Of a DNA stretch of 64,000 nucleotides, positions 32,636 through 38,365 are shown one piece after another. This DNA comes from Pectobacterium colocasium (GTDB taxonomy: Bacteria > Pseudomonadota > Gammaproteobacteria > Enterobacterales > Enterobacteriaceae). Location: positions 1,922,001-1,986,000 of the forward strand of contig NZ_CP084032.1 of NCBI RefSeq assembly GCF_020181655.1. The letters are read 5' to 3'. The notes beneath the pieces are model-generated. The model worked only from the letters and a program-made list of their open reading frames with translations, had not been told where the DNA came from and searched no databases. Positions within the stretch are counted from its first letter, which is position 1. Every line of letters begins with the position of its first letter. The position numbers and the translations under genes are program-made.

Positions 32636-32829
32636 AGTATCGCTATACCGGCCCCGCCAGCGGCGTCACGCTGGCAGATGGTCAGGAAATCCTGCTTTGG
32701 CCTGCTCAGGTGACTGAACTGCCGGCAGATCATGAGTACGTGAAAACGCTGATCGCGCTGGGCTATTTGCTGCCTGTCGCGGGTCAGGTTCTGGCTGATA
32801 GCGCAACGGAGGTGACCCTTGGCCGCTAA
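32632..32829 (+). CDS. Mu gp38-like small protein (DUF2635)
   Basis: A 65-residue protein beginning MKYRYTGPASGVTLADGQEILL, the kind of opening seen in DUF2635 (Mu gp38) proteins. Function unknown; it always sits between gp37 and sheath genes. It overlaps gp37 by 4 bp and the sheath gene by 11 bp. Confidence 0.78.
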   Translation: MKYRYTGPASGVTLADGQEILLWPAQVTELPADHEYVKTLIALGYLLPVAGQVLADSATEVTLGR

Positions 32830-34246
32830 TTATTTACACGGTGTAGAAACCATTGAAGTTGAAACCGGTGCTCGTCCGGTGAAAACCGTCAAATCTGCGG
32901 TGATCGGGTTGATTGGTACGGCGCCGCAGGGTGCGGTAAATGATGTCACGCTGTGTCTGTCCGAAAAAGATGCGGCACAGTTTGGTAGCCAGTTCAGCGG
33001 CTATACCATCCCGCAGGCGCTGGATGCCATTTACGATCACGGCGCAGGTACGGTTCTGGTCATCAACGTGCTGGATCCGGCGAAACACAAATCGTCGGTG
33101 AGCGCAGAAAAAGTCACGTTTGACAAAGCGACCGGTACGGCGCAACTGGCGAACCGTGTGGTTGCCAAACTGGTGCTGATGGCGGCGGAAGGCAGTCAGC
33201 CGTTTGTCGAAGGTCAGGACTATACGCTGGATGCACAAACTGGCGTCCTGAAAAACCTGGGCAAAAATATCGATGCCGCCGCTGTGGTTAGCGCGTCTTA
33301 TGACTTTGCTGATGTCACGAAAGTGACTGCCGCCGACATCATCGGCAGCATCAACGCCGCGGGCAAACGTACCGGTATGAAGCTGTTGAACGATACCTAC
33401 AACCTGTACGGCTTCTTTGCCAAGATTCTGATTTCGCCGGTGTTCTGTACGCAAAATAGCGTAACGACCGAGCTGATCGCACTGGCGGACAAACTGGGCG
33501 CGATTGCCTACATCGATGCGCCAATCGGTACCACTTTTGCGCAGGCGCTGAGCGGCCGTGGCCCGGAAGGCACGATCAACTTCAACACCAGCTCTGAACG
33601 CGCTCGTCTGTGCTATCCGCACGTCAAAGTGTACGACGCGGAAACCAACAGCGAACGTCTGGAACCGCTATCGGCGCGTGCTGCCGGCCTGCGTGCCAAA
33701 GTCGATCTGGAAAAAGGTTTCTGGTGGTCGTCGTCCAACCAGGAAATCAAAGGGATCACCGGTGTAGAGCGCCAGCTGTCCGCGATGATTGACGATCCGC
33801 AGAGTGAAGTGAACCTGCTGAACGAGCAGGGCATCAGCACCATTTTCAACAGCTACGGCTCCGGCCTGCGTCTGTGGGGTAACCGCACCGCCGCCTGGCC
33901 AACCGTGACGCACATGAAGAACTTCGAAAACGTGCGTCGTACTGGCGATGTGATTAACGAATCCATCCGCTATTTCAGCCAGCAGTACATCGACATGCCG
34001 ATCAACCAGGCACTGATCGACGCATTGGTGGAATCGGTCAACGCCTATGGTCGCAAGCTGATCGGCGATGGTGCGCTGCTGGGCTTTAAGTGCTGGTTCG
34101 ATGCCGCGCGTAACGAGCAAACCGAGCTGGCGGCAGGGCACCTGTTGCTTAACTACAAATTCACTCCGCCGCCACCGCTTGAGCGTCTGACCTTTGAGAC
34201 GGAGATCACCTCGGAATACCTGGTAACGCTGGAGGGCACTAACTGA
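32819..34246 (+). CDS. Tail sheath protein
   Basis: Major contractile sheath subunit, 475 residues. It starts with TTG at 32819 behind GGAGGTGA. Typical sheath pieces are YLHGVETIEVETGARPVKTVKSAVIGLIGTAP at the N-terminus, and VDLEKGFWWSSSNQEIKGITGVERQLS and the conserved C-terminal LLGFKCWFDAARNEQTELAAGHL region, which forms the strand-exchange mesh. Mu gp39 and P2 FI are homologues. Contraction drives the tube through the target envelope. Confidence 0.95.
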   Translation: MAANYLHGVETIEVETGARPVKTVKSAVIGLIGTAPQGAVNDVTLCLSEKDAAQFGSQFSGYTIPQALDAIYDHGAGTVLVINVLDPAKHKSSVSAEKVTFDKATGTAQLANRVVAKLVLMAAEGSQPFVEGQDYTLDAQTGVLKNLGKNIDAAAVVSASYDFADVTKVTAADIIGSINAAGKRTGMKLLNDTYNLYGFFAKILISPVFCTQNSVTTELIALADKLGAIAYIDAPIGTTFAQALSGRGPEGTINFNTSSERARLCYPHVKVYDAETNSERLEPLSARAAGLRAKVDLEKGFWWSSSNQEIKGITGVERQLSAMIDDPQSEVNLLNEQGISTIFNSYGSGLRLWGNRTAAWPTVTHMKNFENVRRTGDVINESIRYFSQQYIDMPINQALIDALVESVNAYGRKLIGDGALLGFKCWFDAARNEQTELAAGHLLLNYKFTPPPPLERLTFETEITSEYLVTLEGTN

Positions 34247-34770
34247 TGGCCGGGAAAATTGAAGTAAACCGTATTACCAACGCCAACATCTACATCAACG
34301 GCACCAACCTGCTGGGGCGTGCGCAGGAAATCAAACTGCCGGATGTCTCCATGATCATGCAGGAGCACAAGGCGCTGGGTATGGTCGGTAAGATCGAACT
34401 GCCTGCGGGCTTCGACAAACTGGAAGGTGAGATCAAATGGAACTCCTTCTACCGCGAAGCAATGCTGGCGGCGGCGAACCCGTACCAGTCGCTGGCGCTA
34501 CAGTGCCGCTCCAGCGTGGAACGCTACGGCTCTCAAGGCCGTATCGAAGAAGTGCCGCTGGTGACGTACATGACCATCATGTTCAAAAAGAATCCGCTGG
34601 GTACGTTCAAGCAGCATGAAAACCCGGATTTCAGCAGCGCATTCAACTGCACCTACATCAAGCAGGTGATGAACGGTGAAGACCTGCTGGAGCTGGATTA
34701 TATGTCCAACATCTTCATGGTGGGCGGCGTGGATCAACTGAACAGCTACCGTGCCAATATCGGCGGTTAA
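34246..34770 (+). CDS. Tail tube protein (P2 FII-like)
   Basis: Major tube subunit of 174 residues. The core KIEVNRITNANIYINGTNLLGRAQEIKLPDV and KHEN/DFSS region match P2 FII-type tube proteins. Its ATG overlaps the sheath stop codon (TGATG). It polymerises into the hollow rod inside the sheath. A hairpin follows the gene. Confidence 0.94.
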   Translation: MAGKIEVNRITNANIYINGTNLLGRAQEIKLPDVSMIMQEHKALGMVGKIELPAGFDKLEGEIKWNSFYREAMLAAANPYQSLALQCRSSVERYGSQGRIEEVPLVTYMTIMFKKNPLGTFKQHENPDFSSAFNCTYIKQVMNGEDLLELDYMSNIFMVGGVDQLNSYRANIGG

Positions 34771-34782
34771 TTTATCTTCCAG

Positions 34783-34801
34783 GCCCGCTGTCAGGGCGGG
34801 C
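34783..34801 (+). terminator. Hairpin after the tube gene
   Basis: GCCCGC (34783-34788) pairs with GCGGGC (34796-34801), followed by GTTTCT. It is a weak terminator that could reduce transcription beyond the most abundant structural genes. Confidence 0.55.
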
Positions 34802-34826
34802 GTTTCTATCAATCAATAAGGTGACC

Positions 34827-35123
34827 ATGTCAGAAAAAGTATTTGATATTATTGACTTAGAAAATAATATTCACTTTCAATGCCGTGAAGATGTCTACAT
34901 TTTGGATGCGGGGGAAGAGGCGGGTTTTACTTTACCCTATTCAAGTCGTGCTGGTGCGGACTCGACATCTGTAGCCCGTTTGATCTCTGGCCAGGTTGAT
35001 CAGAGTGATGGCTCCTATTTAGATGACAACCAGAAAGCGGCCGGCTTCTTTCTGACGGATACCTCTTACCCGCTAAGCAATTGTGTTGTTCGCTTCTATG
35101 CAGAAGATGAGCTGCATCATTAA
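34827..35123 (+). CDS. Ferredoxin-like protein lacking all Fe-S ligands
   Basis: A 98-residue protein plainly related to plant-type 2Fe-2S ferredoxin: FQCREDVYILDAGEEAG, LPYSSRAGADSTS, SGQVDQSDGSYLDDNQ, LTDTSYPLSN and YAEDEL follow plant ferredoxin along its whole length. The four ligand positions, in exact C-x4-C-x2-C-x29-C spacing, are Ser40, Asp45, Ser48 and Asp78, so no cluster can be bound in the normal way. The two remaining cysteines (19, 86) are elsewhere. There is no signal peptide. It is more AT-rich than neighbours and sits between its own two hairpins, like a phage moron. Start ATG 34827 behind AAGGTG. Function unknown. Confidence 0.88.
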   Translation: MSEKVFDIIDLENNIHFQCREDVYILDAGEEAGFTLPYSSRAGADSTSVARLISGQVDQSDGSYLDDNQKAAGFFLTDTSYPLSNCVVRFYAEDELHH

Positions 35124-35150
35124 TTATCAATGTTCGCGTTATCGTAATGA

Positions 35151-35172
35151 GAGGGGCTTCGGCCCCTTTCTT
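35151..35172 (+). terminator. Terminator after the ferredoxin-like gene
   Basis: GAGGGGC (35151-35157), UUCG tetraloop, GCCCCTTT (35162-35169). The stable tetraloop and T residues make a good intrinsic terminator. Confidence 0.8.
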
Positions 35173-35262
35173 ATGCCCGCCATTTTCGTTTTCTAATTCA
35201 CTTTAAAATCGTTATTCCTCGCTGCACGCGATACTGCTCCCGACATTTACTAAGGAGCCGTT

Positions 35263-35583
35263 ATGCACACTGAAACCTATTCTCTGCAATTCCCTTACAC
35301 CACCTCTGCTGGCCAACGCGTGGAGTCCATTTCGCTCAAGCGTCTGAAAGTCAAAGACATCAAAGCGGTAAAAAAAATCAGCGATGACCCAAGCAACTGG
35401 GACGACGCACTGCTGTCGCGCATGACCGGTCTGGTGCCGGAAGACATCGATGAGATGGACGCGCAGGACTATATGGCGCTGCAAAAACGATTTCAGCAGC
35501 TACTTGGGTTGGATAACGCAGCCGGCGCTGCTGTGGAAAGCGCAGGCGCTACTGGCGAGGTGGTTTCGCTTTCAGCCGAGTGA
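35263..35583 (+). CDS. Tail assembly chaperone, short form (gpE/Mu gp41-like)
   Basis: A 106-residue protein in the usual place before the tape measure gene. It reads LQFPYTTSAGQRVESISLKRLKVKDIKAVKKISDD, then GLVPEDIDEMDAQDYMALQKRFQQLLG, typical of the phage tail assembly protein group (Phage_TAC_7-like). The chaperone coats the tape measure while the tube assembles. A longer product by frameshift is expected and described next. Confidence 0.85.
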   Translation: MHTETYSLQFPYTTSAGQRVESISLKRLKVKDIKAVKKISDDPSNWDDALLSRMTGLVPEDIDEMDAQDYMALQKRFQQLLGLDNAAGAAVESAGATGEVVSLSAE

Positions 35584-35887: not shown

Positions 35888-38365
35888 GTGGATATGCTTT
35901 TAAACGGTGTCATGCTGGGCAGGGCGTTTGGCGCCACGCTGGATGACACAAAAAAATCCCTGCAGCCACTTAGCGATAAACTCAAACAAGCTGAGGAGTG
36001 GCAGCGTCTGTTTAATCAGTCGCTAGAACGTTTTGGCAATGTCAGTTTGCGCAGCACACAAGTGACATCCCGACTGAGCCAGTCATTAAGTAAATTGGTA
36101 ACCAATCAGGAACGGCTGGAGAGTAGCCAGTCACGTCAGGAAACGCTACGTAGCCGTCGAAGTGAACTCGCTAGTGACTTTAAGACTAAGCGCGAACAGT
36201 TCGGTTCTGTCATGAAGCCAATTGTGGCGTCGGTTACACGCTATGCGTCGTTCGAGGCGCAGTTGCGCGACATCAGCGTTGCTCATGGGATATCGAGCGA
36301 GCAGGAAAAGTTGATGGGGCAGAAGCTACGTCAATCTTCTCAACGCGTAAACCAAACGCCGGATGCGCTGCTTAGCAGTACCGGACAGCTGCTTGCTCGC
36401 GGTATGTCAAAAGAGCAGGTAACGGATGTAGCCGAGGTGCTGGGGAAAACGTCAACGGCCTCTGGCGCGGCGCTGTCCGATCTTACCGCGCTTTCGGCCA
36501 CATTGGATGGCGTGTTTAACCTGAAAGGAGCGAAAGCGCTGGAGGAATCCTTCTCCCGCATGCTGGCGGGGACTAAGCAAGGGTTTTCCATGGCGTCGAT
36601 GGCGCAATACGCGACGGCGCTGGCTCCAGGATTTACGGCGATGGGGGCGACGGGTAATCAAGCGCTGAGTCAGTTAGTTTCCAGTCTGAGTGCGACAAAA
36701 GGCACGGATACGGAAGCGAACACGGCTGCCCGGCTGGAGAGCTTTATGAATGCCGTGGGGCGAACCGACATTGCTGACAGTTACGGCAAAGCGGGCGTGA
36801 ATTACAACGCGTTGCTGAAAAGCCATATGAAAGATGGATATTCACAGTACGACGCAGCGGTTCTGATTGGCAATCAGTTGATCGACAGCAAAGGCAGTCA
36901 ATTCCAGAAACGCTGGGACATGGCGGCGGGTAACGTGGACGCACAGCAAAGCTTAATGCAGCGTTACGGCTTGCAGGAGGTGTTCCGAACACCAGAAGCG
37001 CTCAATCATGCGATGTCGATGAAACAGAATTGGCAGAGCTATCAAGCAAACCAGCAGCGGATGAATAGCCCGGCGGCCACGCAAACGCTGGGTCTCGACT
37101 TCGCCCGACAGAATGACACATTGACCGCGCGCTGGAATCAAATGACAACGTCAGTGATGAACATTGCGCTCAATGTGGGAGAAGCACTGACGCCGGTATT
37201 GGTTTCCTTGAGCGACATACTGATTCCTATTTTGGATCAATTGGTGACCTGGACGGCAGCGAACCCTGAACTGGTTCGCGGGATCGTGATGGCCGTTGCC
37301 GGTTTCTTCGCGTTCAGAATGGCATTGAGCGGGGCGAAGTTGGGGATGACCACGCTGTTATCGCCTTTGCAGAGCGTTTGGGGCGGTATTTTGCAAGTTC
37401 AGCGCGGTTGGCAATTGTTCAATGCGGGATTAAGAACGACGGGCGTATTACAAGGTGTGGGAGCGGCGCTGAACTGGCTGGTTGGCGGAGCCGGAACATT
37501 AGGGCGCATGCTTGGCGGTGTGTTACGCAGCGGCTTGATGATGGCAGGCCGAGCAATATTGGTGCTGGGGCGTTTGCTGCTGACAACACCAATTGGCTGG
37601 ATAATTACCGCGATTGTGGGGGCAGTTGCTTTGATTTACTACTACTTTGATCCAATCGCTGCATTTTTCAAAGATCTCGGTTCAAAAATTGGCAATGCTT
37701 TCGATGCGGGTCTGGAAGCGCTCAGTGATGCGGTATCCGGTGGCGTAGTAGGTATTACCGCTTTACTGCTCGATTGGTCACCCTACGGTGTGCTGTATTC
37801 CATCTTTGCTGATACTGTTAGCGAACTGGGGATTCAGCTTCCCGGCAGCCTCAGTGAGCTCGGTGGCGTGATTATTGATTCCCTGGTTAAGGGGCTGGTC
37901 AGTTATTTCCCTGAGCTAAAAAATGTCCTGAAAACGATCGATGAGTTTATTCCCGATAGCGTTAAAGACTTTCTGGGTATCGGCTCGAAGAAAGTGTCTG
38001 TAGAAGCCAGCGGTCAATCTGTGGCTGCCAGTGTTATGACTCCACCCGTTCTGCAACCCACTCAAGTATCTGCATTGTCGCTACAGCCGACGCAGCATGT
38101 TGAATTACCTAAGACTGAGGACGCAATGCCAACGCCGCAACAGCGGGTTGCAATGACATCATCTGTCGGTGGAGCGAAAGGTAAGTTAGTCAGCGCAGCC
38201 CCTTCCGAACGTGTTCAGGTTGCTTTCTCACCCACCATTTATCTCAACGGCCAGAAGGCTGCGCCAACGCCTGAAATGACGAAGACGCTGACGCTTAGCA
38301 TGAATGAACTGGAAAATATGTTGAACAAGCTGCTCACTCAGCGTGAGCGCAGGGGGTATGCCTGA
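35888..38365 (+). CDS. Tail tape measure protein
   Basis: An 825-residue protein that sets tail length. The first 140 residues are coiled coil with repeated Ser/Gln/Arg, then the conserved tape-measure core (YASFEAQLRDISVAHGISSEQEKL, LARGMSKEQVTDVAEVLGKTS, PGFTAMGATGNQALSQL). A long hydrophobic stretch with several segments follows at about 440-600 (WGGILQVQ to WIITAIVGAVALIYYYF). GTG 35888 or ATG 35894 are both possible starts. At about 1 A per residue-equivalent helix this predicts a tail of the order of R-type particles. Confidence 0.92.
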   Translation: MDMLLNGVMLGRAFGATLDDTKKSLQPLSDKLKQAEEWQRLFNQSLERFGNVSLRSTQVTSRLSQSLSKLVTNQERLESSQSRQETLRSRRSELASDFKTKREQFGSVMKPIVASVTRYASFEAQLRDISVAHGISSEQEKLMGQKLRQSSQRVNQTPDALLSSTGQLLARGMSKEQVTDVAEVLGKTSTASGAALSDLTALSATLDGVFNLKGAKALEESFSRMLAGTKQGFSMASMAQYATALAPGFTAMGATGNQALSQLVSSLSATKGTDTEANTAARLESFMNAVGRTDIADSYGKAGVNYNALLKSHMKDGYSQYDAAVLIGNQLIDSKGSQFQKRWDMAAGNVDAQQSLMQRYGLQEVFRTPEALNHAMSMKQNWQSYQANQQRMNSPAATQTLGLDFARQNDTLTARWNQMTTSVMNIALNVGEALTPVLVSLSDILIPILDQLVTWTAANPELVRGIVMAVAGFFAFRMALSGAKLGMTTLLSPLQSVWGGILQVQRGWQLFNAGLRTTGVLQGVGAALNWLVGGAGTLGRMLGGVLRSGLMMAGRAILVLGRLLLTTPIGWIITAIVGAVALIYYYFDPIAAFFKDLGSKIGNAFDAGLEALSDAVSGGVVGITALLLDWSPYGVLYSIFADTVSELGIQLPGSLSELGGVIIDSLVKGLVSYFPELKNVLKTIDEFIPDSVKDFLGIGSKKVSVEASGQSVAASVMTPPVLQPTQVSALSLQPTQHVELPKTEDAMPTPQQRVAMTSSVGGAKGKLVSAAPSERVQVAFSPTIYLNGQKAAPTPEMTKTLTLSMNELENMLNKLLTQRERRGYA

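Follow-up and report, generated by a model that had tools for sequence, protein, structure and literature searches.

What does a plant-type ferredoxin that has lost every ligand of its iron-sulphur cluster do inside a phage-tail bacteriocin? The question is raised by an ATG-started frame of 98 codons on the forward strand (34827..35123), found by open reading frame analysis of the window, i.e. the whole stretch of 64,000 nucleotides analyzed here from the 4.9-Mb chromosome of Pectobacterium colocasium. The 98-aa product is a single domain, without the killing domain that, joined to a ferredoxin domain, defines a pectocin. It is encoded within a P2-like tail cluster that also contains sheath, tape measure, baseplate, and fibre genes. 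Matched by gene content and genus, this cluster is carotovoricin, which is described for Pectobacterium in passages of PMC13195805 and PMC6963963. The features used below are:

32819..34246, + strand: tail sheath gene (Pfam Phage_sheath_1, E 9.5e-35; phrog_23)
34246..34770, + strand: tail tube gene of P2 FII type, the left neighbour (Pfam Phage_tube, E 2.7e-54)
34783..34801, + strand: hairpin upstream of the ferredoxin gene (terminator-like scan match)
34827..35123, + strand: clusterless plant-type ferredoxin gene, 98 aa
34944..34946, + strand: Ser40 codon, cysteine ligand position 1 (alignment to PDB ferredoxins)
34959..34961, + strand: Asp45 codon, cysteine ligand position 2 (same alignment)
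34968..34970, + strand: Ser48 codon, cysteine ligand position 3 (same alignment)
35058..35060, + strand: Asp78 codon, cysteine ligand position 4 (same alignment)
35153..35171, + strand: terminator GGGGC-TTCG-GCCCC with T run (stem 35153-35166), common to empty sites
35263..35583, + strand: tail assembly chaperone gene of E type, the right neighbour (Pfam Phage_TAC_7, E 6.3e-21)
35888..38365, + strand: tape measure gene (phrog_28, E 4.9e-72)

Resemblance to ferredoxins was established by comparison with solved structures. Using phmmer against the PDB, the protein matched cyanobacterial ferredoxin 3p63 with an E value of 4.2e-25, by which a chance match or reading-frame artefact was rejected, and pectocin M1 (8jc1) with an E value of 1.2e-24. 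The match to plant and cyanobacterial ferredoxins spans nearly the whole protein, and in the four PDB alignments shown both ligand loops are gap-free, with S40, D45, S48, and D78 in the cysteine columns, precisely as the original prediction had placed them. With the ligands excluded, the protein is 55% identical to the pectocin M1-type domain. Structure modelling, which had been proposed as a check, gave a predicted beta-grasp ferredoxin fold; AlphaFold2 run from 26 Pectobacterium-type rows brought no gain (pLDDT 51.5). The Pfam Fer2 model is passed at 25.2 bits (cut-off 21) and NCBIfam fdx_plant at 92.9 bits (cut-off 81.15), and because the latter cut-off is passed the family is named '2Fe-2S' in databases. 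With cysteine missing from the ligand positions, the protein would not be expected to bind a canonical [2Fe-2S] cluster; electron transfer is therefore unlikely. No signal peptide was seen by eye on the 98-aa protein, leaving lysis as its obvious exit.

One protein search yielded 25 relatives, and all of those with a source name were from Pectobacterium. Together with eight further Pectobacterium proteins (P0027-P0034, from a profile search with the best 120 of 235 matches listed) and the query, minus one fragment, these form a set of 33 full-length Pectobacterium-type proteins. None of the four ligand cysteines is present in 32 of the 33, P0029 keeps one, and the non-ligand cysteines 19 and 86 are kept in all 33. 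Other ferredoxin domains elsewhere in the genus, including those of pectocin type, retain all four cysteines, mostly as CRAG(A/S)CS(S/T)C. Several Pectobacterium loci (L018, L030, L031, L032, and L033) encode cysteine-bearing ferredoxins of 117-126 codons with a short tail and without a killing domain, which may be orphan pectocin heads or something else. The window's own genome also holds a pectocin-type ferredoxin fragment (L002, 2743428-2746523), matched only over residues ~47-82.

Substitution patterns were compared across 66 pairs from 12 genomes. The ferredoxin gene had a mean dN of 0.113 and a mean dS of 1.15 (four pairs saturated), versus 0.006 and 0.27 for the tube and 0.015 and 0.12 for the chaperone. 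Its N/S ratio of summed proportions was 0.19 over the same pairs, dN/dS against the window's copy ranged from 0.05 to 0.19, and the value for the family overall is about 0.1-0.2; the gene is therefore under purifying selection. The proposal that the ligands were lost while selection kept the remainder is upheld by these values (dN/dS about 0.05-0.2) and by the 32 of 33 proteins without ligand cysteines. Decay of the gene was rejected on its low dN/dS and its open frames in 12 genomes, and a relic confined to the window's genome was rejected on its relatives in other genomes. None of the outcomes named beforehand as refuting the original prediction occurred: the cysteines are lost in the relatives too, decay of a solitary copy does not account for the gene, and other species have conserved it. 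A strict 10-residue pattern scan of genome contigs found four loci, all in Pectobacterium, although a single pattern of this kind cannot show absence elsewhere. Among phage records, 279 matched (Synechococcus, Cyanophage, Prochlorococcus, and one Marine), without the tailocin gene among them; the 40 matches listed of the 279 were all annotated as ferredoxin. Plasmid searches matched 24 records, all below 60% identity and none the tailocin gene.

The original prediction likened the gene to a moron with its own hairpins. The tube is 98-100% identical in 21 of 25 Pectobacterium genomes, and of these 21 carotovoricin clusters 12 hold an intact ferredoxin gene, one a broken copy, and eight none, as expected of an optional insert between otherwise adjacent phage genes. 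The gap between tube and chaperone measures 477-509 nt in the 12 genomes with the gene and 142-159 nt in the eight without it. In G129, a member of another genus, the tube is 99% identical, the gap is 138 nt, and the gene is absent. The order tube, ferredoxin, chaperone holds in all 13 IMG/VR contigs found and in all 12 intact genome copies. The broken copy, in G021 (L017, L044), has a stop codon and lies ~1.5 kb from the tube; carotovoricin looks disrupted in this genome. The downstream terminator stem is also found in the eight empty Pectobacterium gaps (loop GAAA in one), and a related GC-rich upstream stem was seen by eye in the 12 ferredoxin-bearing gaps and in none of seven of the eight empty ones. 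The insert therefore lies ahead of the terminator and brings the upstream hairpin, so that only one of the two hairpins can be called the gene's own. In the remaining empty gap (G013) a stretch resembling the upstream hairpin remains, by eye, and reads as a deletion scar. By folding energy, 34771-34826 reaches -15.7 kcal/mol (z -1.5), and 35140-35180, the downstream terminator stretch, folds with a z of -3.9. A consensus scan found no promoter-like site between the upstream hairpin and the start codon, and two overlapping matches, both within the ferredoxin gene.

Base composition also sets the insert apart from its neighbours. GC content is 43.8% in the ferredoxin gene versus 53-56% nearby, and GC3 is 40% compared to 75% in the tube and 61% in the chaperone, which points to a foreign origin. 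Silent-site divergence of the ferredoxin alleles is 4-9 times that of the neighbours, and the alleles are therefore older than their surroundings; allele exchange by recombination would apparently be the simplest cause. Alleles down to 56% identity are paired with tubes of 98-100% identity. Other P2-like tails may have unrelated small genes in this slot (Phage_gp49_66, phrog_1239, phrog_9518), so the slot looks generally accessory. Such small genes occupy the tube-chaperone gap in several of the P2-like tails among L056-L073, and the gap is short (120-163 nt) in L067, L071, and L072. The window's own genome has a second P2-like tail (L058, G000:C1:1579799-1580320) with a tube 83% identical and Phage_gp49_66 in the slot.

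Replacement of the ligands follows a pattern. Among the matches listed (best 120 of 235), 55 proteins had no ligand cysteine, fragments P0026 and P0087 having been dropped and the five proteins that retain one or two of these cysteines (P0029, P0035, P0066, P0088, P0115) standing outside all ligand-less counts. Exactly one acid is found at positions 40 and 45 in 52 of the 55 (32/32 Pectobacterium-type, 20/23 others), Ser is found at 48 in 50, and position 78 carries Asp in 50 and Glu in three. In a wider search (best 120 of 1457 matches listed; P0087 included) the one-acid rule at 40/45 was kept in 75 of 80 ligand-less proteins. Position 40 itself accepts six residues (S, D, G, A, Q, E). When the ligand columns are withheld from the tree, the acid at 40 changes 10 times on it, and among nine independent pairs differing at 40, seven differ in the opposite sense at 45, none in the same sense, and two are unchanged (p 0.016). 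The site is therefore jointly constrained, and two carboxylates and a serine may have taken the place of the cluster as partners for the hydrogen bonds of the loop.

Ligand-less forms were also found in Penicillium, Purpureocillium, and metagenome contigs, several with signal-peptide-like starts. The fungal proteins are P0045, P0086, P0137, and P0141 (Penicillium, Purpureocillium), and metagenome relatives with signal-peptide-like N-termini, judged by eye, are P0042, P0067, P0068, P0108, and P0135. Most of the fungal and metagenomic proteins (e.g. P0045 of Penicillium salamii and P0137 of Purpureocillium lilacinum) share the acid, serine, acid site; unlike the tailocin gene, they were seen in no tailocin context and form a separate clade on the tree. 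With the ligand columns left out, ligand-less forms occupy at least three places on a tree that was built from few columns; five changes between four and fewer cysteines fall on it, and the AU test does not reject their grouping in one clade (p-AU 0.245). L020 stood outside the first tree, and L020 and L024, a long branch, outside the second. Proteins retaining just one or two of the cysteines are possible intermediates. Three two-cysteine forms, P0066, P0088, and P0115, read CCSD, DTCC, and DSCC at the ligand positions, one of them in a lipoprotein-like sequence; they may mark steps on the way to full loss, or their two cysteines may pair as a disulphide. A literature search on such fungal proteins and on phage-linked clusterless ferredoxins did not find the family among the matches listed.

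Pectocins of Pectobacterium enter cells via FusA by their ferredoxin domain (passages of PMC5095587). FusA was examined as a candidate partner. The window's own genome encodes FusB as well as a FusA whose match to the solved receptor, 4zgv, scores 1263.6 bits. Measured against this copy, FusA in 25 Pectobacterium genomes is 66-100% identical in 14 and ~45% identical in eight, with one broken (G020) and two without it. The 12 ferredoxin-bearing genomes have FusA of the 66-100% class in nine cases and the ~45% relative in three. By cluster, the ferredoxin gene is present in nine of 13 with FusA at 66-100%, in three of seven with the 45% relative, where a further copy is broken, and in none of the one with broken FusA; across these 21 clusters no clear link was found between gene presence and FusA class. 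Protein distances of the ferredoxin and FusA co-vary over 12 genomes (r 0.47, p 0.012; 0.465, p 0.012 given the gyrB region), p being uncorrected in one of eight different Mantel tests, and ferredoxin distances do not co-vary with tube or chaperone distances in the same 12 genomes. The co-variation is driven by G005 and G016, is contradicted by G010, and within the main FusA class (nine genomes) falls to r 0.19, p 0.27.

Conservation on the receptor-facing surfaces was compared with that of the remaining positions; the pectocin-type set of this analysis had L020, L021, and L024 removed. FusB contacts were mapped in what we take to be the numbering of spinach ferredoxin. The contacts came from passages of PMC13253070, and the residues of pectocin M1 shifted by FusA, from passages of PMC5095587, were mapped to 13 positions, one only roughly. 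In two uncorrected tests, conservation at the 13 FusA-perturbed positions did not differ from that of the remaining ones (p 0.59), and the FusB contacts varied more than the remainder (p 0.0098). In spinach ferredoxin, F64Y lowers FusB binding ~fourfold and D66N reduces it severely (passages of PMC13253070). Residue 64 in the tailocin family is most often Tyr and residue 66 is Asp in 64%; this speaks against import through FusB, and blocking without import is possible. Conserved residues specific to the family are I8, E12, F17, R51, A71, F90, and F91.

The function that we put forward, as a tentative proposal and one more possible than probable, is that of a redox-dead ferredoxin mimic released at lysis, with FusA as the first candidate. 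Here an optional carotovoricin cassette encodes a plant-type ferredoxin without any cluster ligand, which would be expressed by read-through with the tail genes and would leave the cell with the particles at lysis. Its activity would be protein binding; it would occupy ferredoxin-recognising surfaces on neighbours, with FusA the first receptor and candidate partner, and the outcome would be either that rival pectocins are barred from kin or that the ferredoxin-iron uptake of rivals is blocked. Several observations favour such a mimic: loss of the ligands makes electron transfer unlikely, yet the sequence is held and the old ligand site is constrained in the family; the high dS (1.15 versus 0.27 and 0.12) would suit a partner that varies among strains; the domain is the one by which Pectobacterium pectocins, 55% identical outside the ligands in the M1 type, enter at FusA; all 12 ferredoxin-bearing genomes have FusA or its ~45% relative (9 + 3); ferredoxin distances co-vary with those of FusA and not with those of tube or chaperone; the gene lies between tube and chaperone in 12/12 genome copies and 13/13 IMG/VR contigs; and with no signal peptide by eye, lysis is the evident way out. 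However, the co-variation rests on two genomes, with a third against it, and is weak within the class, gene presence shows no clear link to FusA class, FusA-facing positions are not more conserved and FusB-contact positions are more variable. To our knowledge, the fungal ligand-less relatives do not meet FusA. A published deletion was without a bacteriocin phenotype, possibly masked by an S-type pyocin (passages of PMC6813493). A decoy could, moreover, be encoded anywhere, yet all intact copies with known context sit in one slot, and the family-specific conserved residues hint at another partner.

Those last two points are shared by a more doubtful explanation, an accessory of the particle that binds tube, chaperone, or baseplate and tunes assembly or decorates the particle: the slot is constant, the adjoining tail genes are nearly identical, and the conserved residues are unlike those of other ferredoxins. 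The gene is nevertheless absent from eight of 21 clusters with near-identical tubes, alleles down to 56% meet tubes 98-100% identical, so that the tube is an unlikely partner, and other P2-like tails carry unrelated small genes at this position. The latter, including Phage_gp49_66, accord with a moron that acts inside the producer before lysis, e.g. as an inhibitor of some protein of the host or of a rival phage that recognises ferredoxin or the beta-grasp fold, as do the lack of a signal peptide (by eye) and the GC of 44% versus 53-56% that points to foreign origin. We consider this unlikely, given that non-induced expression needs a promoter, of which the consensus scan found none, and that we know of no intracellular partner of plant-type ferredoxins in Pectobacterium. 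Improbable, in our judgement, is a rebuilt site in which two acids and serines bind another metal or a small ligand in the emptied pocket. The acid at 40/45, Ser48, and acid at 78 do recur in Pectobacterium, fungi, and metagenomes, other beta-grasp domains have reused the cluster site for ligands (passages of PMC1949818), and plant C1-FDX holds an iron ion (passages of PMC9873573); but the acids could merely accept hydrogen bonds from the former cluster loop, and position 40 is open to six residues, as listed above. That the protein is a decaying or still ordinary ferredoxin is scarcely credible: the stop in the G021 copy and the single ligand cysteine of P0029 are set against purifying selection, open frames in 12 genomes, and the loss of every ligand cysteine in 32 of the 33 proteins. 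Returning to the released mimic, it may belong to something larger. With little confidence, we suggest that clusterless ferredoxins make up a class of binding proteins that has gone unrecognised, with the iron-sulphur site rewired to a fixed acid-serine-acid site in bacteria and fungi, of which the tailocin version would be a fast-exchanging, released receptor decoy, and that the class arose several times, or once and then spread between bacteria and fungi.

The gene itself is very probably already in print, contrary to the original prediction that no such gene had been described: passages of PMC6963963 and PMC6813493 report a ferredoxin gene of the ctv cluster. According to the former, a 'ferredoxin (2Fe-2S) protein' of this cluster was not identified in four taxa. 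According to the latter, which also cites up-regulation of carotovoricin in planta, deletion of the gene in strain Pcb1692 left bacteriocin zones normal, for which its authors offer an S-type pyocin or a non-essential gene as possible reasons. The published 'ferredoxin (fer)' is very probably the window's gene, the identity for Pcb1692 being one that we infer rather than take from a sequence comparison. A 'nitric oxide deoxygenase' gene of variable presence, reported for 88 of 365 carotovoricin clusters (passages of PMC13195805), is perhaps the clusterless ferredoxin gene; the word 'ferredoxin' is absent from the main text of that paper, and NCBIfam gave no nitric-oxide name for five proteins tried. 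The missing ligands are not noted in the passages of PMC6963963, PMC6813493, and PMC13195805 that treat the cluster. The novelty lies in the clusterless state, in the rebuilding of the site, in how far the alleles diverge, and in the family's wider membership.

Databases and the papers cited above file the carotovoricin 'ferredoxin' under iron-sulphur proteins; its sequence rules out a normal member of that class, which changes the experiments that make sense. That fungi share the site also means that clusterless proteins get through the standard family models under the name of ferredoxin, a misannotation of some reach. Since FusA is solved, as is the FusB-ferredoxin complex, and a deletion strain has been published, the decoy idea is directly testable. 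If true, a tailocin decoy would close to rivals the route by which they pirate iron.

Among known systems, the ctv 'ferredoxin (fer)' is ferredoxin-like, lies in the ctv cluster, and occurs in some species only, like the window's gene, but passages of PMC6963963 and PMC6813493 take it as a ferredoxin and do not mention missing ligands, allele divergence, or relatives. Pectocins M1, M2, and P have a ferredoxin domain fused to a bacteriocin domain, whereas the tailocin protein is without a second domain, and the pectocin-type proteins compared here keep the four cysteines that it lacks. Plant and cyanobacterial [2Fe-2S] ferredoxins share its predicted fold and about half of its residues; their four cluster ligands are all replaced in the tailocin protein. 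The C1-FDX domain of plant complex I is not known to hold an iron-sulphur cluster. This unusual ferredoxin-type domain has a structural or binding role and carries an iron ion (passages of PMC9873573), and the N-terminal domain of the L-proline dehydrogenase type is another such domain, in which the cysteines are lost (passages of PMC1949818). Unlike the tailocin gene, these two are mitochondrial or enzyme parts, neither mobile nor carried in tailocins.
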